From positions 1 to 46,247 of the forward strand of contig VGSW01000008.1 of assembly GCA_016874915.1 (NCBI GenBank): a stretch of 46,247 bases of DNA. The letters are read 5' to 3'. The notes under the pieces are model-generated. The model made no database searches, was not told the DNA's origin, and was given only the letters and a program-made list of their open reading frames with translations. The first letter of the stretch is position 1, and every line of letters starts with the position of its first letter. Shown here in pieces: positions 788 through 13,312 of the stretch. The DNA is from Deltaproteobacteria bacterium (GTDB lineage: Bacteria; Desulfobacterota; Desulfobaccia; Desulfobaccales; 0-14-0-80-60-11). A program made the position numbers and the translations under genes.

Positions 788-1285
788 TTATTTTTGCGGC
801 CCCATATCCCTGAGCCATTTTTTCAACACTTCTCTGGTCGGCAGATTGCCCACGGCCTTCACGTCATCATTGATTATGAGGGCCGGGGTGCAGAAGACGC
901 CCAGGGCGTGAATCTCTTTCAAATCCCGGATGTGGTCCACCTCCGCCGGGAGTTCCAGATCCACCAGCGCTTCCATGACGGTCTGCTCCAAACGGTCGCA
1001 GGAAGGACAGCCAGGCCCCAGGATTTTGATGCTCAATCCGGTGCGTTCCTCAATCACTTTCTCGCCCAGGGCTTTTTTAAATTCCCGCAGGAAAGCCTGT
1101 TTGTACTCTTCCCGAGACGAAGCGGGGATATAGTTGCGGGGCTTGAGTCTATCAAACAGGGCTTGGGCAATTTCTTCATCAGGCCGCCCCCGTAAAACCT
1201 TAACCTCTTCAACCGCGTCTTTCAGGCCGTTGATGCCCACCTTGAACTTTCCCAGAGAAATCTGGGTGATGTCCTGTGGGGACAT
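788..1285 (-). CDS. Two-domain thioredoxin-like protein (CPSC)
   Basis: A 165-residue protein. Residues 1-82 form an all-helical-looking domain of unassigned family (predicted charged helices, no cysteines). Residues 85-165 form a minimal thioredoxin domain with C93-P-S-C96 and a CTPAL segment before the third strand. Proteins of this layout are known in anaerobes beside permeases and arsenic genes. The start at 1285 has AGGAGGAG upstream and lies 77 bases inside the end of the lipoate ligase gene, an unusually long same-strand overlap implying tight coupling. The C-terminal domain is paralogous to the 77-residue protein at 121-354. Function is inferred as dithiol-disulfide exchange. Confidence 0.85.
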   Translation of the reverse strand: MSPQDITQISLGKFKVGINGLKDAVEEVKVLRGRPDEEIAQALFDRLKPRNYIPASSREEYKQAFLREFKKALGEKVIEERTGLSIKILGPGCPSCDRLEQTVMEALVDLELPAEVDHIRDLKEIHALGVFCTPALIINDDVKAVGNLPTREVLKKWLRDMGPQK

Positions 1286-2063
1286 AATTTTTCTCCTCCT
1301 GATAGGCCAGGTCCCGGGCCAGGTTCCACTCGGCGGCGTCGATCTCGCCCGGCTGCAACTCCACCCCCAGCGCCTGGGACATGCCCTGGCGCACGGCTTC
1401 CTTGAGCTCAGTCAGTTTGAGCGTCCATCCCAGGATTTCCTCCAGGGAAGTCAGGCGGGCGGCAAGCCTGGAACGCAAGGCCGCCGGAGATTCCCCCTTA
1501 GCCTGCACCAGGGCCAGCCAGGCCTCCACCTGGGGCCTGACGATGATGGAGCCGTGTTGGAGCAGGGAGGAGGCATGCCAGGTTTGGGCGCTGCCCACCA
1601 GTTTCTTCTTCTGATAGACGATGGCTCCCCGGGCGCCGCGGAGGAAGCAGATGTCCGTCTGGTGAGGGTCATCCCGCTCCCGCCCCATGCGGGCTTCGAT
1701 TCCCAGGATTCGGAAGGCTTGGAGCAAACCCTGGGCGATCAGGTGGTAGGCCGCAGTGACCGCGGAAGGCATCCCCTCGGGGGCGCCGGCGATAAGGGCA
1801 TAAGTCAAGTCATCCAGGTGCAGCACCGCCCGGCCGCCGGTGGGCCGCCGCACCACTTCGTAACCCAGGCGTCGGCAGGCCTCCAGATCCAGGTCGTGCC
1901 GCTTTTGAAAGTAACCCAGGGACACGGCTGGCGGCCGCCACTGGTAGAGACGCAGGGTGGGGGGAGACTTGCCGTTGGCATGGAGAGCCAGCAAAGCCCG
2001 GTCAATGGCCATGTTGCCGGCGGGGGATAAAGGCCCGGTGTCCAGAAATCGCCAGGTTTTCAA
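1209..2063 (-). CDS. Lipoate-protein ligase A / octanoyltransferase (LplA/LipM family)
   Basis: A 284-residue BPL_LplA_LipB-fold protein that attaches lipoate or octanoate to a carrier lysine. The family motif RRPTGGRAVLH is intact, as is the lysine segment QKKKLVGSAQ followed by LLQHGSII. I place the start at TTG 2063, giving the family-typical N-terminus KTWRFLDTGP; GAGGG lies 7 bases upstream. The longer frame to 2303 only reads through a repeat and the end of lipA. It follows lipA by about 25 bases, so carrier charging and sulfur insertion are encoded together. Whether it is an ATP-dependent ligase or an octanoyl transferase cannot be settled from sequence. Confidence 0.85.
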   Translation of the reverse strand: MKTWRFLDTGPLSPAGNMAIDRALLALHANGKSPPTLRLYQWRPPAVSLGYFQKRHDLDLEACRRLGYEVVRRPTGGRAVLHLDDLTYALIAGAPEGMPSAVTAAYHLIAQGLLQAFRILGIEARMGRERDDPHQTDICFLRGARGAIVYQKKKLVGSAQTWHASSLLQHGSIIVRPQVEAWLALVQAKGESPAALRSRLAARLTSLEEILGWTLKLTELKEAVRQGMSQALGVELQPGEIDAAEWNLARDLAYQEEKNYVPTGHHPDFSGKVQGGHQRPERRG

Positions 2064-2071
2064 GCCAGGTC

Positions 2072-2215
2072 CCTCATGAGCCGTCGGCTCACCCGAAAAG
2101 GATGAAAAGATATTTCTTGGGGGGAGGGCCAGGGAGATTTTTGTAAGTGCTCCCTGCCCTCCCCCCAAACCCCCCTCCCCCAACAACAACTTTTCTAAAC
2201 AGGTCCCCAAAGAAG
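2072..2215. repeat. GC-rich hairpin repeat, overlaps the lipA 3' end
   Basis: The head CATGAGCCGTCGGCTCACCC is followed by GGATGAAAAGATAT and then a G-run/C-run stem (GGGGGGAGGGCCAGGGAG .. CTCCCTGCCCTCCCCCC). The closest relative is at 12385-12625, where head, middle and tail (CAACTTTTC) recur in the same order. Read on the minus strand it supplies the last ~35 codons and stop of lipA and the ribosome site of the lipoate ligase gene. Confidence 0.8.
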
Positions 2216-3219
2216 ATGGACGCCTTGTAGGAACTGCGCACCAGGGCCCCGGCGGCCACGCTCTTGAAACCCAGGGCCAGGGCATGCCGGCGCCAGCCGC
2301 CAAACTCTTCCGGGTTCACATAGCGGGCCACCGGGACGTGGTGGAGGGAGGGGGATAGATATTGTCCCAGGGTGAGCATGTCACAATCCACTTGCCGCAA
2401 ATCCTTCAGCACCTCGTCGATTTCTGCATATTCCTCTCCCAGGCCCAGCATCAGGCCGGACTTGGTGATGATTTGGGGGGAAAGCTCCTTTGCCTGTTGC
2501 AGCACCTTGAGGGAACGGCGGTAATCCGCACTCCGCCTTACCAATGAATAGAGCCGGGGCGCGGTTTCCAGGTTGTGGGCCAGGATGTCCGGCCCGGCGG
2601 CCAGCACCGTGGCCACCGCCTCCCTGGACCCGGCAAAATCCGGCGCCAGGAGTTCCACCCGGACGCCGGGGCAGTGCTCCCGCAAAGCTCCCACCACCCT
2701 GGCATAGTGAGCCGCACCGCCGTCCGGGAGATCATCCCGGGTCACCGAAGTAATGACCACGTGCCGCAGGCCCAAATCGGAAACCGCCCGCGCCAGGCGT
2801 TGGGGTTCGTCTTTCTTAAGCGGCAAAGGCATGCCCTTTTTCACCGCGCAGAAGGCGCAGCCCCGGGTGCAAACATCGCCCAGGATCAGGAAAGTGGCGG
2901 TGTGATGGGAGAAACACTCCCCCCGGTTGGGGCAACGGGCGCTCTCGCAGACCGTGGGCAGATGGAGACGGTTCAGGAGATTGCCGGTTTGCGTTACTAT
3001 TTCCGCACTCCTGCCCCGCTTGGCGCGGCGCACCTCTTCCAGCAGCCACTTTGGGGCCGGGGGGGGTGATTTGAGAAAAGGGCCGGGGGAACGCGGTTCC
3101 CCCGCCCTCCCCTCAATCTCCCCTCCCAACCCCCGGTAAGGGGTTGGGGGAGAGGGTTTGGGAAAGGGGGCAGGGGCCTGCGGCCCCTGGCCCCCTCTCC
3201 CACAATCTATTTTCCTCAT
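2089..3219 (-). CDS. lipA: Lipoyl synthase, with repeat-encoded N- and C-terminal extensions
   Basis: A radical SAM enzyme that inserts two sulfurs into octanoyl carriers. The core is intact: auxiliary cluster C91-x4-C96-x5-C102, radical SAM cluster C117-x3-C121-x2-C124, and the C-terminal RSSY with the serine ligand. The ATG at 3219 has GGGGAG upstream and sits 2 bases after the lpd stop. Residues 6-55 (rich in P, G and R) come from a GC hairpin repeat between the start codon and the normal PKWL-type N-terminus. The last ~35 residues (a glycine-rich stretch ending YLFILFG) come from a second repeat past the usual end of the family. The protein is 376 aa against a usual ~290-330. The core is probably active, and the tails are probably disordered. 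Confidence 0.9.
   Translation of the reverse strand: MRKIDCGRGGQGPQAPAPFPKPSPPTPYRGLGGEIEGRAGEPRSPGPFLKSPPPAPKWLLEEVRRAKRGRSAEIVTQTGNLLNRLHLPTVCESARCPNRGECFSHHTATFLILGDVCTRGCAFCAVKKGMPLPLKKDEPQRLARAVSDLGLRHVVITSVTRDDLPDGGAAHYARVVGALREHCPGVRVELLAPDFAGSREAVATVLAAGPDILAHNLETAPRLYSLVRRSADYRRSLKVLQQAKELSPQIITKSGLMLGLGEEYAEIDEVLKDLRQVDCDMLTLGQYLSPSLHHVPVARYVNPEEFGGWRRHALALGFKSVAAGALVRSSYKASIFFGDLFRKVVVGGGGFGGRAGSTYKNLPGPPPKKYLFILFG
3056..3218. repeat. GC hairpin repeats inside the lipA 5' coding region
   Basis: Two nested G-run/C-run inverted repeats: one around 3078-3120 (GGGGGAACGCGGTTCCCCC and flanks) and one around 3130-3205 with a GGGGCCTGCGGCCCC core. The same GGGCCTGCGGCCC core occurs at 12516-12530 in the intergenic copy. 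Here it is read in frame with no stop, adding about 50 residues to LipA. Confidence 0.75.
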
Positions 3220-3221
3220 AC

Positions 3222-4606
3222 TTATCTCCCCGGCGGCAGATGAATCGCCTGTCCGTGCAGGGCCTGGGCCACTTCCAGCACCGCCTCAGACAAGGTGGGA
3301 TGGGCGTGGATGGTCTCCATAATCACCCGGCTGGGAAGTCCCCCCGCATGGCCAGGGCAAGTTCGTGGATCAGGTCCGCGGCGTGGGGGCCGATGATGTG
3401 GGCGCCCAAGATCTGGTCGGTCCGGGCATGGGCGATGATCTTCACCAATCCTTCCAGCTCTCCCAGGCACTGGCCCATCCCTAAGGATTTGAAGGGAAAG
3501 CGGGCCACCTTGATGGGATGTTTCCCCTCAGCTTCCGCTTCCGAAATCCCCACCGCGGCATATTCCGGTATCGTGAAAGTGCAGCGGGGCACAACCCCAT
3601 AGTCCATCTTGCTTCCCAGACCCAGGGCGTGCTCCGCGGCGCAGATGCCCTCGGCAAAGGCCACGTGGGCCAGGAGCCAGCCGCCGATGACATCGCCGGC
3701 GGCATAAATGCCGGGGATATTGGTCATCATGTGTCCGTCCACCAGGATGCGCCCATTCTCCAATTGGACGCCCAGCTCTTCCAGGCCCAGGCCCTCGGAG
3801 TTGAACCGCCTTCCGGTGGCCAGGAGGATGGTGTCCGGGGCCAGCTCCGTGCCGTCGGCCAGCCGGACCGCGAAATTCTCCGCCCCTTCTTGCACCCCGC
3901 TTACCTGCACCCCGCACCTAACCGCAATCTTGCGCCGTTTGAGCACGCCGGCCAGATACTCCGCCATCTCCGCGTCGTCGTAAGGCAGCAGCCGGTCCAT
4001 CACTTCCACCAGGCTCACCTGGGAGCCCAGTTCCCGGAAAATGGCGGCCATCTCCACCCCCACCGCGCCGCCGCCCACTATCAGCAAGTGCTTGGGAAGG
4101 TAGTCGATGGTAAGAATCTCGTCGGCCAGGAAGACCCGGGGACTCTGGGGAAAAAGGGGCAGGCGGGCCGGGCGGGAGCCGGTGGCCATCACCACCTTGG
4201 CGGCCTTCACCAGGTCAAGCCGCCCGTTTCTCTCCACTTCGATTCTATCGGCGGCAATGAGCCGGCCCCGTCCCTCCACCAGGGCGATGCGATGCGCCTG
4301 GAAGAGGCGGCCGACGCCGGCTCTCAGCCCCGAGACTACCCGGTCCTTGCGAGAGATAATGGCCTGGATGTCCGGGGATGCTTCCACGGGCCGGAAGCCG
4401 TACTCTTTGGCCCGGCGCATGGCCCGGCCCACTTCGGCGGAGGCCCGCACCGTCTTGGTGGGAATGCAGCCCCAGTTGAGGCAGACGCCGCCCAGGAAGC
4501 TTTCCTCCACTACTACCACCTTCGCCCCTAGTTGGGCCGCCCGGACTGCTCCCTGGTAGCCCGCGGGGCCGCCTCCCAGGAAGGCGATGTCGTATGCTTC
4601 CGGCAT
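3222..4606 (-). CDS. lpd: Dihydrolipoamide dehydrogenase, interrupted by a single-base frameshift
   Basis: An FAD/NAD-dependent disulfide oxidoreductase that re-oxidises or reduces dihydrolipoyl groups. FAD motif GGGPAG is at residues 11-16, the redox disulfide is C42-LNWG-C47, and a second nucleotide motif GGGAVGVE is present. The first frame stops at 3323 after LALAMRG. The missing C-terminus, including the catalytic HAHPTLSE His-Glu pair, continues in the next frame to 3222. The switch lies at a run of six C (3340-3345, G on the coding strand); one more G would restore a full-length 461-residue enzyme. This may be a sequencing or assembly error, a true mutation, or slippage. The ATG at 4606 has AAGGAA upstream, and the osmC-like gene ends 10 bases before it. 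Confidence 0.9.
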
Positions 4607-4615
4607 GAGAGTTCC

Positions 4616-5038
4616 TTATTGGATCACAATGTCCGGCTTGACGATGATTTCGGACTTGAAAGACTGGCAGATGGTGGAATATTTCAGGGCCATGTCCAGG
4701 GCCCGCTGCACCATCTCCTGGGGCTTCCCCTTGATCACGATCTTGGGATAGAGAGTCACGGTCTTAAACCAGGAGGTCCGGTCCAGGTGTTCCTCCACCT
4801 CGCCTTCGGCGGTGATCTCCAGGGAGACCAGGTCCATCTTAAACCGCTCCGTGGCCCAGACCACCATCATGAAGTAGCAGGTGTTGGCCGCGGCCATAAA
4901 GGCGTCCTCGGGAGTGAGGACCCCCGCCTTGCCGAAGAGGTCCGGGGGCGCGGAAAATTCCATTTCCAACCCGTTCTGGCACCAGGTGTAGCCCAGATGT
5001 TCGCCCCGCCATTCCACTTTATTTTTGTATGTTGCCAT
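4616..5038 (-). CDS. OsmC/Ohr-family protein
   Basis: A 140-residue OsmC-fold protein; the family includes thiol-dependent peroxide reductases. The two conserved cysteines are at C54 (NTCYFM on the first long helix) and C124 (STICQSF). In Ohr enzymes the reductant is a dihydrolipoyl protein reduced by dihydrolipoamide dehydrogenase, which is established for the family. Here lpd and a lipoyl carrier are in the same operon, so a lipoyl-dependent peroxidase role is a reasonable inference. The start at 5038 is preceded by GAGGAG. It directly follows the HMA gene (18-base gap). OsmC rather than Ohr proper is more likely from overall sequence, so substrate is open. Confidence 0.85.
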   Translation of the reverse strand: MATYKNKVEWRGEHLGYTWCQNGLEMEFSAPPDLFGKAGVLTPEDAFMAAANTCYFMMVVWATERFKMDLVSLEITAEGEVEEHLDRTSWFKTVTLYPKIVIKGKPQEMVQRALDMALKYSTICQSFKSEIIVKPDIVIQ

Positions 5039-5056
5039 GCATAGCTCCTCTACGGA

Positions 5057-5326
5057 TCAAACCTCCGGGGTCGATGCTATGATTTCCGGGAAATATTCTT
5101 TCCCCATCATTTTGCCCGCGGTGAACACCGCGGCAAAGACGGTCTCCAGATTCACCAGTAAGGATTCAAAACTCACTGAAAATAAATCCTGGTCGGGGTG
5201 GTAGGTCACTGCCAGCACCCCCTTTATCTTGAGCAATTCGGCGCGCACCGCGTCGGGGCAGCCCATTCAGGTGAAGCCTCCCTGTTGCACCATCCCCTTG
5301 ACCCGCATCCGGATGTCCGTTATCAA
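5057..5326 (-). CDS. HMA-domain protein with in-frame TGA: probable selenoprotein (UxxC)
   Basis: The visible open frame (5266-5057, from ATG) begins exactly after a TGA at 5267-5269. Reading through gives an 89-residue protein from TTG 5326, which has GGAGGAGG 8 bases upstream and lies 3 bases after the preceding stop. The result has the order of a heavy-metal-associated domain: strand ITDIRMRVKGM, loop GGFT-U20-M-G-C23, helix DAVRAELLKIKG, strands, helix, strand. HMA proteins carry CxxC at this point, so TGA replaces precisely the first metal-binding cysteine. A GC-rich stretch right after TGA can form an imperfect hairpin with GGT near its tip, about 20 bases from TGA, where bacterial SECIS loops lie. 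There is no signal peptide. The alternative is a nonsense mutation or base error; selA/B/C are not in the window. Confidence 0.8.
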
Positions 5327-5329
5327 CGG

Positions 5330-5740
5330 CTAATCCTCCTCCAGCACCTCATCCACCGCCCGGGCGATTTCCTCGGCCACGGCCTTGACCGCGGCTTCCT
5401 CCTCCGTCCCGAAGTGGCGCAGTTTGGTGGGAGGCGCAAGGCCGCGCTTTTTCAAAATTTCGGGGATGGACAGCGATTTGCTGGGCTTGCCCGACAGCAT
5501 CTCCGTGGCCTTGGCGGCGCACAGCTTGTCGCAGCCGTCCACCGTGATGGTGGGGTAGTTGGCGGCAAAGGTGCGCTCTTCTTCACCCCCGGCGATAAAC
5601 AGGGGCAGGCAGATGGTGACGGTCTCACCGGGACGCTCATCCAGCACCTTCCGGCAGGCCAGGCGGCACAGAGTGCCCTCGGGGATCTCCTCGCCGCTGC
5701 AGGAAACTACGCCCACTTTCATGACCTGGATGTCCATCAT
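5330..5740 (-). CDS. DGC-domain putative metal-binding protein (first copy)
   Basis: A 136-residue protein of the DGC family (annotated as putative zinc-binding). The conserved cysteines are visible: C14 in VVSCSG, C25 and C29, C44 in TICLPL, and the naming motif D69-adjacent GC70-DKLC74. The C-terminal 50 residues are an extra helical tail. No enzyme activity is established for the family; the cysteine set suggests metal or metalloid binding, or thiol chemistry. Its ATG overlaps the stop of the second copy by 4 bases, and its stop lies 3 bases before the TTG of the HMA selenoprotein candidate. Sequence similarity to the neighbour at 5737-6153 indicates a tandem duplication. Confidence 0.85.
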   Translation of the reverse strand: MMDIQVMKVGVVSCSGEEIPEGTLCRLACRKVLDERPGETVTICLPLFIAGGEEERTFAANYPTITVDGCDKLCAAKATEMLSGKPSKSLSIPEILKKRGLAPPTKLRHFGTEEEAAVKAVAEEIARAVDEVLEED

Positions 5741-6153
5741 TTTTCCTCCCCGGCGGCCAGTTCGTCCACCATCTTGGCCACTTCCGCCGCCGCCACCGCC
5801 GCCAGCTTGCGGCCTGTGTCGGTGACTTCGGCAATGCCCTCAGGTTTGAGGTCCTTGTGCTCTTTATAGAATTTAATGGCCTCGTAGGCCTTGTCCACCA
5901 CCTTGCCCAGGGCCTCCACGCTCTTTTTGGCGCAGTCCTTGGGGCAGCCGTCAATGGTGATCACCGGGTTTTCCGTCACCAAGGCTACCGCTTCAGGATC
6001 ATTGATCACCAAAAGCGGCAGGCAGGTCAGGGTAGCCAGGCCGGGCCGGACGTTCTCCACCAATTCGTAGGCCGTCTCCCGGGCCAACGCTCCGAAGACT
6101 TTGCCGATGCCGCTGCAGGGAAGCACCACCACTTTCTGGTGTTTCTTACCCAT
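5737..6153 (-). CDS. DGC-domain putative metal-binding protein (second copy)
   Basis: A 138-residue paralogue of the previous gene. C13 (LPCSG), C44 (LTCLPL), C70 (DGC) and C74 (KDC) are conserved in the same positions, but the C25/C29 pair of the neighbour is absent (replaced by ARETAYE). The two are therefore probably not redundant: one has six cysteines in the core and one has four. It overlaps the lipoyl-carrier gene by 8 bases at its start and the other DGC gene by 4 at its end, so all are translated from one message. The role is inferred as metal/metalloid or sulfide handling beside the lipoyl carrier. Confidence 0.85.
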   Translation of the reverse strand: MGKKHQKVVVLPCSGIGKVFGALARETAYELVENVRPGLATLTCLPLLVINDPEAVALVTENPVITIDGCPKDCAKKSVEALGKVVDKAYEAIKFYKEHKDLKPEGIAEVTDTGRKLAAVAAAEVAKMVDELAAGEEK

Positions 6154-6604
6154 ATAGTTTCTTCGCCTCCCGGGCGATTTTGTCTTTCATTCTCTCGAAA
6201 TACTCGGACGCCTGGAGAAGTTGGCCCTTGTCCGCTTCGGGGTCGCTCAGTTCAATCCGGTAGATCCAACCGGCCCCGTATGGGTCGTGGTTGATCAGGT
6301 AGGGGCTGGCGTCCATCTCCGGGTTGACTTCCGTGATCTTTCCCGTTACCGGCGAGATGATGGCGAAGGTGGCCTTGATAGTCTCGATCTTGCCGATTTC
6401 GTCGCCCCGTTTGACCTCCAGGCCCGGCTCCACGGTTTCCAGGAAAGCCACGTCGCCCTTGGACTTCTGCATGAAGTCGGTCAGCCCCACGATGGCCGCG
6501 CCGTCCTGAAAATTCGCCCAGAATTCCTCCTTGCTGTAGAGGTAGCCCACTTTCACCTTGAAGATGAATTTCTCATAAGTGGCTTCCAGGAATTCTCCCA
6601 TCAC
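6146..6604 (-). CDS. GcvH-like lipoyl carrier protein
   Basis: A 152-residue H-protein-fold carrier. The lipoylation site is K77 in GKIETIKATF (ESVKA in classical GcvH), flanked by the two hairpin strands GLEVKRGDEIG and SPVTGKITEVNP. N-terminal and C-terminal additions make it longer than typical GcvH (~128). No glycine decarboxylase or aminomethyltransferase gene is nearby, but lipA, a lipoate ligase and lpd are a few genes away. This matches the idea of a dedicated carrier, as in the sulfur-oxidising LbpA proteins (known from sHdr systems), although no hdr genes are present here. The start overlaps the previous stop by 4 bases. Likely role: dithiol/acyl or sulfane/arsenic-thiol shuttle; the substrate is unknown. 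Confidence 0.85.
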   Translation of the reverse strand: MMGEFLEATYEKFIFKVKVGYLYSKEEFWANFQDGAAIVGLTDFMQKSKGDVAFLETVEPGLEVKRGDEIGKIETIKATFAIISPVTGKITEVNPEMDASPYLINHDPYGAGWIYRIELSDPEADKGQLLQASEYFERMKDKIAREAKKLYG

Positions 6605-6981: not shown

Positions 6982-7450
6982 CAGGCTGTTGAACCCCCGA
7001 TTTTTCTGTCATCCTGAGCTAAGTGAAGGATCTCCACTAACTGGAAAAGATGGGGTTCTTCGCTTTATATGAAAATACCTGGTGGGGCGGGCCTCCGTGC
7101 CCGCCTTCCGGTGGGTGGCAGTGGATGGTGGCCCCACCTTTCAAGATTTAATTTTCATTGTTCGTTGTGACCCTTAGGTCATGATAGTTCGCCCAGAATG
7201 ACAACTTGAGACCTCTGCAAAATACCTAATTGACTGGCTATCCCTTAAAATCCCCTCCCCCTTGAGGGGGGAGGGTTAGGGAGGGGGTGGCAAAATCTTT
7301 AAATGATTTAAGTATCTTAATCAATTTAGCCCCCCTCCCCCCAACCCCCTCCCACCGAGGGGAGGGGGGAATCAAGGCCAAGTTTTCCCGCCTTTTAAGC
7401 TGTTTCGCAGAGGTCTCAACTTGCTATTTTGCAAATTTTTTAACAGCCTG
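6982..7450. repeat. MITE-like element, host of a nested MITE
   Basis: Ends are inverted: CAGGCTGTTGAA at 6982 and TTAACAGCCTG at 7440-7450. The body carries TCATCCTGAGC..AAGTGAAGGATCTCC (7009-7036) and AGAATGACAA (7195-7204), both shared with the element at 13195-13312. A second element (7206-7419) interrupts it. No open frame of note is inside, so it is non-autonomous. Together with the nested copy it fills the 500-base gap between the lipoyl cluster and arsM. Confidence 0.7.
7206..7419. mobile_element. MITE copy A, 214 bp with 17-bp terminal inverted repeats
   Basis: Left end TTGAGACCTCTGCAAAA; right end is its inverse with one mismatch. CAACTTG stands on both sides (7202-7208 and 7417-7423), like a target duplication. 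The interior has a second inverted repeat of CCCCTCCCCCTTGAGGGGG type and the TTAAGTATCTTAA palindrome. It is nearly identical, and in the same orientation, to copy B at 11665-11877. There is no transposase. Confidence 0.85.
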
Positions 7451-7480: not shown

Positions 7481-8239
7481 TCATTGACCTTTGAACGCGC
7501 GCACTTTCACGCTGATGATTTTCCCAAGCAAACGCTCATCCATCCCCGGGGCCTCATAGGGAGACTCGGAAACTACAGCCACCTCCGCAAAACCGGCGTG
7601 TCGGATGGTTTCCAGGTAAGCCTCCTTTTCCATGGCCCCGGCCAGGCAATCGGCCCAGGCCGCGGCGCTGGCCCGCACGTCGGGCGGGAGTTCGCCCGCG
7701 GTCACCAGGTCGGCGATGAGGATGCGCCCACCCGGCTTCAAGACCCGATGAACCTCCTGGAAGCTGGCCAGCTTGTCCGGGGTCAGGTTGATCACGCAAT
7801 TGCTGATGACCACATCCACGGTTCCCGAATCCACCGGGAGATGTTCGATATAGCCCAGGCGAAATTCCACGTTGGGGAAGCCATGCTGCTCCGCCAGCAG
7901 GCGGCCTTTGGCCACCATGTCCTCGGTCATGTCCACGCCGATGACCCGGCCCCGGTCCCCGACCTTGGTGGCCGCCAGGAAGACGTCGATACCCGCGCCG
8001 GAGCCCAGGTCCACCACGGTTTCACCTGCCGCGATATCCGCCAGCGCGGTGGGGTTGCCGCAGCCCACTCCCAAAACGGCCGACTCCGGCACCAACTGCA
8101 AATCCTCCGGGGTATATCCCACGGCCAGGCATTGGTCGGCCACCGTGGGGCCGCAGCCAGGGCAGCAAAATAGGGTTTCTCCCCGGGCGATCTTGCCGTA
8201 GCGTTCCTTGATAAATTCTTTGAGGTCCTGATCTTCCAT
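7481..8239 (-). CDS. arsM: Arsenite methyltransferase
   Basis: A 252-residue SAM-dependent methyltransferase that converts As(III) to methylated species. The SAM motif VVDLGSGAGIDVF is at residues 75-87. The As(III)-binding cysteines characteristic of ArsM are present: C60 in GVGCGNPTALA, C148 in ISNCVINL and C198 in WADCLAGA. An extra N-terminal set C25-C26-x2-C29 (FCCPGCG) adds further thiols. It lies 30 bases after the CcdA-like gene and is the last gene of the acr3-led block bracketed by MITE copies. In the family, glutathione or thioredoxin reduces the enzyme; the neighbouring thioredoxins are plausible reductants. AAGGAA upstream supports the 8239 start. Confidence 0.93.
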   Translation of the reverse strand: MEDQDLKEFIKERYGKIARGETLFCCPGCGPTVADQCLAVGYTPEDLQLVPESAVLGVGCGNPTALADIAAGETVVDLGSGAGIDVFLAATKVGDRGRVIGVDMTEDMVAKGRLLAEQHGFPNVEFRLGYIEHLPVDSGTVDVVISNCVINLTPDKLASFQEVHRVLKPGGRILIADLVTAGELPPDVRASAAAWADCLAGAMEKEAYLETIRHAGFAEVAVVSESPYEAPGMDERLLGKIISVKVRAFKGQ

Positions 8240-10377: not shown

Positions 10378-11553
10378 TTAATCAGGCCGCTCCGGGGAAT
10401 GGATGGTGGCATGGGTGCAAGCGGGACAGAGATAGGCGTCGATGTCCCCCCTTCGGGCCCGGAAGAGGAAGCCGAGCCCCGCTTCCTGGCCGCAGACCGC
10501 GCAGCTTGGGAGGGTAAAATACTTCTGTTTAAAGCGCAGTGCTACATGCACCAGGCCGAGGAGGACGGGCACCTCCAGGAGAGGGCCGATGACCGTGGCG
10601 AAGGCCATACCCGAGTGGATGCCGAAGACCGCGATGGCCACGGCGATGGCCAGCTCAAAGTCATTGGACGCGGCAGTGAAGGAGAGGGTGGTGGTGACCG
10701 GGTAGTCCGCCCCCAGCTTCATGGCCATAAAAAAAGTCAGAAAAAACATGCCCAGAAAATAGAGTGCCAAGGGGATGGCGATGCGCACCACGTCCAGCGG
10801 CAGGCTGACAATGTATTCCCCTTTCAGGGAGAACATCACCACAATGGTGAATAACAGCGCAATCAGGGTGATGGGAGAAATCTTGGGAATAAAACGCTCT
10901 TCGTACCACTGGCGGCCTTTCAGGCGTCCCAGGATCAGGTAGCTCAAGAGGCCGGAAAAGAATGGGATTCCCAAATAAATGAGCACTGTGACCGCCACGT
11001 CCGCCATCTCCACGTGGACCTCCCGGGCGAAGGAAAGCCCCAGCCAATGGGGAAAGACGGAGATGAACAGGTAGGCGTAAACGGCGTACAGGGCCATCTG
11101 GAAGATGGCGTTGAAGGCCACCAGCCCGGCGCAGTATTCCCGATGGCCGCCGGCCAGCTCGTTCCAGACGATGACCATGGCAATGCAGCGGGCCAGGCCC
11201 ACCAGGATGAGGCCCACCGCATACTCCGGGTAGCCGGAAAGGAAGACGATGGCCAAGAGGAACATCAGGACCGGTCCGATGCCCCAATTGAGAATCAAGG
11301 AGAGGGCCAGAATTTTAAACTGGCTGAAGACCCGGTGCAGCTCCTCGTATTTCACCCGGGCCAGGGGGGGATACATCATCAGGATGAGGCCGATGGCGAT
11401 GGGAATGTTGGTGGTTCCCACGGTAAAGCGGTCGATAAACTTGGCGACCCCGGGGATGAGGTACCCCAGGAGCACCCCGAAGACCATGGCCAGGATGATC
11501 CACAGGGTGAGAAAACGTTCCACGAAACCCAAGCGTTTGGCGACGGTGGCCAT
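10378..11553 (-). CDS. acr3: Arsenite efflux permease ACR3 with added C-terminal zinc ribbon
   Basis: A ten-helix transporter of the ACR3/BASS superfamily that expels As(III). The signature [18 protein letters not shown] is present with the essential cysteine. The usual C-terminus ([10 protein letters not shown], about residue 347) is followed by a 44-residue tail carrying C351-x2-C354 and C376-x2-C379, a zinc-ribbon or metalloid-binding pattern not part of the standard family. Start ATG 11553 has AAGGAG upstream. A GATAT-ACAA-ATATC inverted repeat lies at 11565-11578, so a second operator is possible. A MITE separates it from arsR. Confidence 0.93.
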
Positions 11554-11664: not shown

Positions 11665-11877
11665 TTGAGACCTCTGCGAAATACCTAATTGACTGCCTAT
11701 CCCTTAAAATCCCCTCCCCCTTGAGGGGGAGGGTTAGGGAGGGGGTGGCAAAATCTTTAACTGATTTAAGTATCTTAATCAATTTAGCCCCCCTCCCCCC
11801 AGCCCCCTCCCACCGAGGGGAGGGGGGGATCAAGGCCAAATTTTTCCGCCTTTTAAGCTGTTTCGCAAAGGTCTCAA
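11665..11877. mobile_element. MITE copy B, 213 bp with 17-bp terminal inverted repeats
   Basis: TTGAGACCTCTGCGAAA at the left and its inverse with one mismatch at the right. CAATTT occurs on both sides (11661-11666 and 11875-11880). Sequence and orientation match copy A at 7206 almost base for base. It lies between arsR and acr3 and has probably separated arsR from acr3. There is no gene inside. Confidence 0.85.
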
Positions 11878-11922
11878 TTTAATAATATTTCTCGGAAAAA
11901 GAGCCGGAATAGGTGATCTCCT

Positions 11923-12297
11923 TCAGGAACACTGGCAGGCTGCGGCGGCGCTGTCTTTGGTCTCTGTTTTGGCCGACAGCCATTGTTCCAACCGCTCCCG
12001 CAAAGCAAGGGCCTCCGGGCGTGAACTCAGGATGTCCGCCAGCAGTTTTAATTGCTTGTCCTCCGGGCTGCCGGGGGCGACGCTCAGCCGGTAGTTCATC
12101 CAGACACCCTCCCGGCGGTCGTTTACCCAGCCCAGGTGATAGAGATAGCGCAGGTGGCGGGAAGCCTTGGACTGGGTGATGCCCAGGACTCCCATAATGT
12201 CGCACACGCAGAGCTCCTCTTTGGCCATCAGCAGCCAGAGGATTTTCAGGCGGGTCTCATCGGCCAGGGATTTGAAGAGACGGGCTTCGGTTTTCAT
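11923..12297 (-). CDS. arsR: ArsR-family arsenic-responsive repressor
   Basis: A 124-residue winged-helix repressor of the ArsR/SmtB family. The As(III) site is ELC30-V-C32-DI on the recognition-side helix, as in E. coli-type ArsR. The DNA-reading helix is ITQSKASRHLRYL, and a GVWMNYRL wing follows. An extra CQC pair sits at the extreme C-terminus. It is the first gene of the minus-strand arsenic locus and has its own near-perfect promoter with a palindrome between the two hexamers (12305-12333), which fits autoregulation released by arsenite. Confidence 0.93.
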   Translation of the reverse strand: MKTEARLFKSLADETRLKILWLLMAKEELCVCDIMGVLGITQSKASRHLRYLYHLGWVNDRREGVWMNYRLSVAPGSPEDKQLKLLADILSSRPEALALRERLEQWLSAKTETKDSAAAACQCS

Positions 12298-12333: not shown

Positions 12334-12384
12334 TTATCCTATTTACGTAAGAACCTGTATCCCTTTCTTTCCCAGGGCAGTCGC

Positions 12385-12625
12385 TCATGAGCCGTTGGCT
12401 CACCCGTGAAGGATGAAAAGATATATTTTGGGGGAAGGGCCAGGGAGCAACGCTCCCTGCCCTCCCCCCAAGCCCCCCTCCCAACCCTTTAAGGGGGCTG
12501 AGCTAAGGAAGTCGGGGCCTGCGGCCCCGACTCCCTTAGCCTGATCATTACCCTTAAGGGATTGGGGGAGGGGGGCAAGGGCGGGCACCCTTGGCCCCCT
12601 CCCCCAAAAACAACTTTTCAGAACA
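12385..12625. repeat. Long GC hairpin repeat, full copy
   Basis: Same order as the 2072 copy: CATGAGCCGTTGGCTCACCC head, GGATGAAAAGATAT, G-run/C-run stem, then an inserted second hairpin (GTCGGGGCCTGCGGCCCCGAC, about 12512-12532), a third G/C stem, and the CAACTTTTC tail. There is no coding evidence. It fills most of the gap between arsR and the next gene. Confidence 0.8.
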
Positions 12626-13194: not shown

Positions 13195-13312
13195 GAGACT
13201 CTTGCAAATATGGTTTTTGTCATCCTGAACGAAGTGAAGGATCTCCAAATACGGGATTCTTCGCGGCGCTAGAATGACAATTCCTGCCAACGGGGAATTT
13301 TGCAAGAACCTC
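13195..13312. mobile_element. MITE-like element, about 118 bp
   Basis: Inverted ends GAGACTCTTGCAAAT at 13195 and ATTTTGCAAGAACCTC ending 13312, flanked by CGAAT on both sides (13190-13194 and 13312-13316). The core TCATCCTGAAC..AAGTGAAGGATCTCC and AGAATGACAA matches the element at 6982. It sits 40 bases before the GNAT gene and may hold or displace its promoter. Confidence 0.75.

Follow-up and report, generated by a model that had tools for sequence, protein, structure and literature searches.

Does an in-frame TGA in a small gene of a bacterial arsenic locus encode selenocysteine (Sec) at a metal-ligand position, and if so, what would such a protein do? The gene, which we call HMA-U, occupies 5057..5326 on the minus strand of the window (the whole 46,247-nucleotide stretch of DNA that was analyzed), running from a TTG at 5326-5324 to a TGA at 5059-5057. 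Read through a single further TGA at 5269-5267, its frame is MITDIRMRVKGMVQQGGFT-U-MGCPDAVRAELLKIKGVLAVTYHPDQDLFSVSFESLLVNLETVFAAVFTAGKMMGKEYFPEIIASTPEV, a predicted HMA-type selenoprotein of 89 amino acids with Sec as residue 20. This TGA, flanked by GGFT and MGC, stands where an HMA-type metal loop has its first ligand; the second ligand of the resulting UxxC would be the cysteine encoded by TGC at 5258..5260.

A prior interpretation (here, the sequence-only reading) had placed a TGA at exactly this ligand, as GGFT-TGA-M-G-C, and its coordinates and frame are correct, on the minus strand. It had also described a TTG start with a good ribosome-binding site, and direct reading confirms one, GGAGGAGGA at 5334..5342 (minus strand), ending 7 nt before the TTG; comparable sites precede the gene in relatives, and a relative from the same genus has ATG where the window gene has TTG. 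Finally, what remains without read-through is, as claimed, an open reading frame that begins at MGC (5057-5266, 69 amino acids), and gene callers that take the TGA as a stop will report this 69-residue protein, minus its first strand and its first ligand.

Conservation of the in-frame TGA

The family comprises 23 genes: the window gene, its paralogue from the same genome, one gene in each of 18 other genomes of the order, and 3 more distant homologues. Every one of them carries TGA at the Sec codon. Within the order, the gene is present in 19 of 29 genomes (20 genes in total, all with TGA at this codon). Across a phylum-wide sample of 395 genomes, each match scoring above 70 bits has the TGA; the next match falls to 34 bits, and the low-scoring matches whose sequences we inspected are all ordinary HMA domains apart from one with CxxU. 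Scanning 84,980 species for the TGA-containing pattern returned 18 loci with true members, from Desulfobacca, Syntrophobacterales, Desulfarculaceae, and unnamed deltaproteobacterial metagenome-assembled genomes (MAGs). Five further matches to this pattern (L069, L072, L073, L074, and L086) appear fortuitous, and the only match on a viral contig (L091) likewise. The same-genome paralogue, which is 49% identical to the window protein and has TGA at the matching codon, encodes the motif UAGC and stands alone (G000:C159:3996-4247; L002/L038) between an integrase gene and, as judged by eye, ATP synthase subunit-like genes.

The sequence-only reading had looked to homologues bearing either TGA or Cys at this position, and it is solely the former that we recovered. 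A scan of the same number of species for the Cys form, using only the motif GGF[TV]CxGCP, matched 63 stretches, none of which is a relative, and no Cys form was found among the 395 genomes sampled from the phylum. Cys forms of the family thus appear, from the sequences searched, to be rare or absent; Cys homologues exist for nearly all selenoprotein families (PMC13188914). That none was found here suggests that selenium chemistry itself is required. In two distant members, the second ligand is also encoded by TGA (UxxU), and both ligand positions therefore tolerate Sec.

Could the codon instead be a sequencing error, or the gene a decaying one, with Cys in the living organism? The assembly is indeed a draft metagenome, but the identical codon recurs in all 23 genes, which come from many independent assemblies, and this excludes sequencing error, including the miscalled TGC or TGT that had been raised as a way for the claim to fail, and the frames are intact and under selection. 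We regard this explanation as having next to no chance of being right.

Translation across the TGA

The 16 codons ahead of the TGA, compared across 20 genes, show a median dN/dS of 0.21, with dN below dS in 119 of 120 comparisons. Mean pairwise amino acid identity over this stretch is 0.65 in frame versus 0.37 to 0.38 in the other frames, and stops are absent in frame but occur in frame +1 in 14 of the genes and in frame +2 in 4. By these comparative measures, the segment evolves as protein that is translated together with the remainder of the gene.

These data bear on a competing account, in which the TGA is a real stop that ends a short leader peptide and translation restarts at the ATG immediately after it (TGA-ATG) to give a 69-amino-acid protein from MGC. 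The codon right after the TGA is in fact ATG in 11 of the 23 genes (the window gene and 10 others) and GTG in 4; in the remaining 8, however, it is AGC, ATC, ATA, ACC, GTC, or GCC, and reinitiation is consequently excluded as a general explanation. The leader, moreover, is under selection at the amino acid level and supplies strand 1 of the predicted fold, so a restart is very improbable. We infer instead that the TGA at 5269-5267 almost certainly encodes Sec.

Selenocysteine machinery of the host genome

The window's genome is a 3.73-Mb draft MAG, 98.5% complete with an estimated contamination of 5.15%. The case for Sec had been staked on the presence of selA, selB, selC, and selD, and all four turn up in this genome: selA at 624 bits (cutoff, 268), selB at 352 bits (cutoff, 242), selD at 380 bits (cutoff, 125), and, for selC, two tRNA-Sec genes at 73.7 and 73.4 bits (gathering score, 47), which ARAGORN reports as tRNA-SeC with anticodon tca. 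The selD gene itself contains an in-frame TGA (RAAG-U-ASKI), at what we take to be the SelD catalytic site, and thereby gives a positive control for the use of Sec by this genome. The two tRNA-Sec genes (C117:4277-4370 and C13:33826-33919) are accompanied by a second, partial selA that reaches a contig end (selA at C5:46530 and C248:3697); this doubling could stem from duplication or from the assembly's 5% contamination.

A SECIS-like hairpin downstream of the TGA

A candidate SECIS hairpin lies at 5239..5255 (minus strand), in which CGCG at 5252-5249 pairs with CGCG at 5245-5242 around the apical loop GUG at 5248-5246. It starts 14 nt past the UGA, its apical loop lies 18 nt past it, and the GGT that the sequence-only reading had pointed out about 20 bases beyond the TGA is present at 5249-5247, within the hairpin loop. 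The bacterial SECIS model calls for G in the first two positions of the loop, commonly with a G or U next, and for a loop 16 to 37 nt from the UGA (PMC13188914). The window hairpin matches this model, but so do 82% of synonymous-codon shuffles (18% of all shuffles reach the observed stem), and folding energies are not unusual; the predicted element therefore stands as a fit to the published model but not as one better than shuffled sequence. In most members of the order, the best fit to the model is a hairpin at the matching place (with a CGCG or CGC stem and GU in the loop). Same-codon conservation over the nine codons past the UGA has an observed/expected ratio of 1.33, versus 1.03 elsewhere (permutation P = 0.07), and another part of the gene is equally constrained, making synonymous constraint after the UGA only suggestive. 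A SECIS element here is plausible, not demonstrated.

Predicted fold

The window protein scores 22.7 bits against the Pfam HMA model (PF00403), just under the gathering score of 24.8, and a profile of the family searched against the PDB finds Cu-ATPase domains, MerP, and CopZ. Its AlphaFold2 model (pLDDT of 88, pTM of 0.78) has the order beta-alpha-beta-beta-alpha-beta, with the metal loop after strand 1, and places Sec and Cys on the loop that joins strand 1 to helix 1, which is the metal loop of the HMA fold. The top Foldseek matches are HMA7 (3dxs; E value of 7e-7) and MerP (1osd; TM score of 0.90, normalized to the target, with an RMSD of 1.3 Å). The claim that read-through preserves the strand and helix order of an HMA domain is thus borne out by the model, which predicts an HMA fold for the window protein.

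Genomic context

The gene had been assigned to an arsenic locus, and the annotation of the window agrees. In order along the locus (gene coordinates refer to the minus strand) come an ArsR-type metalloregulator (11923..12297; NF033788, 85 bits, cutoff of 55), the arsenite efflux transporter Acr3 (10378..11553; TIGR00832, 442 bits, cutoff of 283), a universal stress protein, a thioredoxin, a CcdA-like protein, the Cys form of the arsenite methyltransferase ArsM (7481..8239; NF008823, 305 bits, cutoff of 263), a DUF1462-like protein, and a GcvH-like lipoyl-carrier protein (6146..6604; Pfam GCV_H, 109 bits, below the NCBIfam GcvH cutoffs). There follow two DGC-domain proteins, putatively zinc binding (5737..6153, 59.8 bits, and 5330..5740, 59.7 bits, to Pfam DGC, the latter being the next gene upstream of HMA-U), HMA-U itself, an OsmC-like protein (4616..5038; Pfam OsmC, 42.8 bits) as the next gene downstream, lipoamide dehydrogenase, LipA, LplA, and ArsE-family thioredoxins, including an MTH895/ArsE-family thioredoxin-like protein (788..1285; TIGR00412, 78 bits, cutoff of 62) of a kind that often adjoins HMA-U in relatives.

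The window's clade consists of 10 genes (support of 97/94), of which 9 adjoin ArsM, ArsE thioredoxin, CcdA, or Acr3, as called in relatives by tblastn with the window's proteins. Their gene orders vary (e.g., ArsM-HMAU-ArsE, CcdA-HMAU-ArsE, and DGC-HMAU-OsmC), and the tenth gene (L078) adjoins, by eye, ferredoxin-type and DUF362-like genes. Other HMA-U clades occupy varied genomic places; because about half of the family, the paralogue included, lies away from arsenic genes, arsenic cannot be the function of the family as a whole.

Several other features of these loci deserve mention. Within the arsenic locus of the window, positions 1209-6604 hold a lipoyl module (LipA, LplA, the GcvH-like carrier, and lipoamide dehydrogenase) together with OsmC and the two DGC genes. 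DGC, GcvH, OsmC, and lipoamide dehydrogenase are common to L022/L087 and L024; none of the four was seen close to HMA-U in L023, L026, L077, and L082. Three families of dispersed repeats, whose second copies are 84 to 91% identical, fall in or near intergenic gaps of the arsenic locus (180 nt at 7243-7422 and 11701-11880, 68 nt at 2069-2136 and 12380-12447, and 43 nt at 7003-7045 and 13214-13256) and are possibly mobile intergenic elements. Elsewhere, locus L089 (JAFDED010000143.1, 1471-2039) contains tandem UxxU HMA genes, the first MerP-like with a signal-like leader (GMIUPAUP) and the second an HMA-U member (MGUPDA); immediately upstream are genes for a MerR-like protein, a small thioredoxin-like protein, and a small membrane protein. 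In L088 (4797-6180) and L050 (122-1466), Sec-HMA genes of the sister family in the order have, by eye, XdhC-like neighbors (and, in L088, MobA-like ones as well), a hint that the partner differs away from arsenic loci.

Proposed function

Taken as a joint statement, the reading that we favor, to which we give a probability of roughly 80%, is that HMA-U is a Sec-containing HMA metal-loop protein that acts as a cytosolic chaperone for a soft metal or metalloid in the arsenic locus; its core, a Sec-HMA metal-loop protein, is strong, and the identity of the cargo is not. SelB and tRNA-Sec would insert Sec at the UGA at 5269-5267, creating a Sec-x-x-Cys pair on the metal-binding loop. A selenolate is ionized at neutral pH, and, as the predicted fold and gene neighborhood would have it, the selenolate/thiolate pair would capture a soft ion in the cytosol, be it As(III), methylated As(III), or another. 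The bound ion would then be handed to partners encoded in the locus, by way of Acr3 efflux, ArsM methylation, or the ArsE-type thioredoxins.

The protein might alternatively be a Sec-based redox enzyme, its UxxC cycling through a selenenyl-sulfide to reduce a substrate such as a methylated or thiolated arsenical and being recharged by the thioredoxins and CcdA of the locus. Selenoproteins usually have UxxC as their redox motif (PMC13188914), and thioredoxin-like and CcdA genes do adjoin HMA-U; the modeled fold, however, is a ferredoxin-like HMA fold rather than that of thioredoxin, and the UxxU members and the MerP, CopZ, and Cu-ATPase homologues point to metal ligation. We consider a redox role unlikely, at about one chance in a handful or slightly better.

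For the window's clade, As(III) or methylated As(III) is the leading cargo, on account of the arsenic-gene linkage, though we hold this at a little under even odds. A Sec-HMA chaperone for copper, mercury, or another soft metal, for which the arsenic neighborhood would be a mere stress-gene island, is somewhat less unlikely than a redox role: the closest solved structures bind Cu or Hg, and the paralogue and distant members occur in non-arsenic or Mer-like contexts, but in the window's clade, the arsenic linkage has been kept through several rearrangements. Bolder still, and tentative, is the idea of an obligately selenium-based arsenic metallochaperone, without a Cys form, that binds As(III) or methylarsenic(III) and supplies it to ArsM and Acr3; if true, Sec would here be used for metalloid handling and not for catalysis. 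Whatever the cargo, the family offers a clean test of the role of Sec, in that it combines a single domain, a single Sec, a same-genome paralogue, both UxxC and UxxU forms, and arsenic-gene linkage.

Comparison with known systems

The nearest curated selenoprotein family is NF041115 (UxxU_metal_bind), likewise small HMA-type proteins with Sec at metal-ligand positions that also occur in Desulfobacterota-type genomes. To our knowledge, the only small HMA selenoproteins described so far are computational predictions (NF041115). We reject placing HMA-U in NF041115. Against a cutoff of 95, the window protein reaches only 15.7 bits (relatives, 17.5 to 31.1 bits), and when NF041115 members and other HMA domains are put into one tree with the 23 family genes, the latter form a single separate group with support of 100/99. 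NF041115 is UxxU, whereas the window protein is UxxC, and UxxU appears within the HMA-U family only in two distant members; the window protein also has a longer loop entry (KGMVQQGGFT) and a GCPDAV signature, and the five NF041115 members that exceed the cutoff in the phylum sample contain no in-frame stop. A MerP-like HMA protein in the sample (L064; G055:C281:3114-3299) has TGA at the second ligand (VKGMTCSGUPPNV), scores 69 bits to NF041115, and is a possible CxxU variant near that family.

A 2026 review covering 119 families of prokaryotic selenoproteins includes NF041115 (UxxU), under the name "putative mercuric reductase," and a cation ATPase with UxxC; a UxxC HMA protein that stands free is absent from its list (PMC13188914). 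In view of this and of its separation from NF041115, HMA-U appears, on the sequences recovered, to be an undescribed selenium-only family, all 23 of whose known members keep the UGA. The cation ATPase (Table 1 of PMC13188914) sets a precedent for UxxC in a metal transporter, and its UxxC probably lies in an HMA-type domain; it is, however, a large membrane transporter, whereas the window protein is free-standing with 89 amino acids.

MerP and CopZ resemble the window protein in fold, in loop position, and in being single-domain carriers, but both are CxxC, and the window protein scores well under their models (17.7 bits against 92.55 for MerP, TIGR02052; 25.1 bits against 91 for CopZ, NF033795). 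Periplasmic MerP, furthermore, has a signal peptide, and the window protein has none by eye. The closest likeness in proposed role, as a small cytosolic carrier of As(III) in an ars operon, is to ArsD, a three-cysteine protein of thioredoxin-like fold that serves ArsA.
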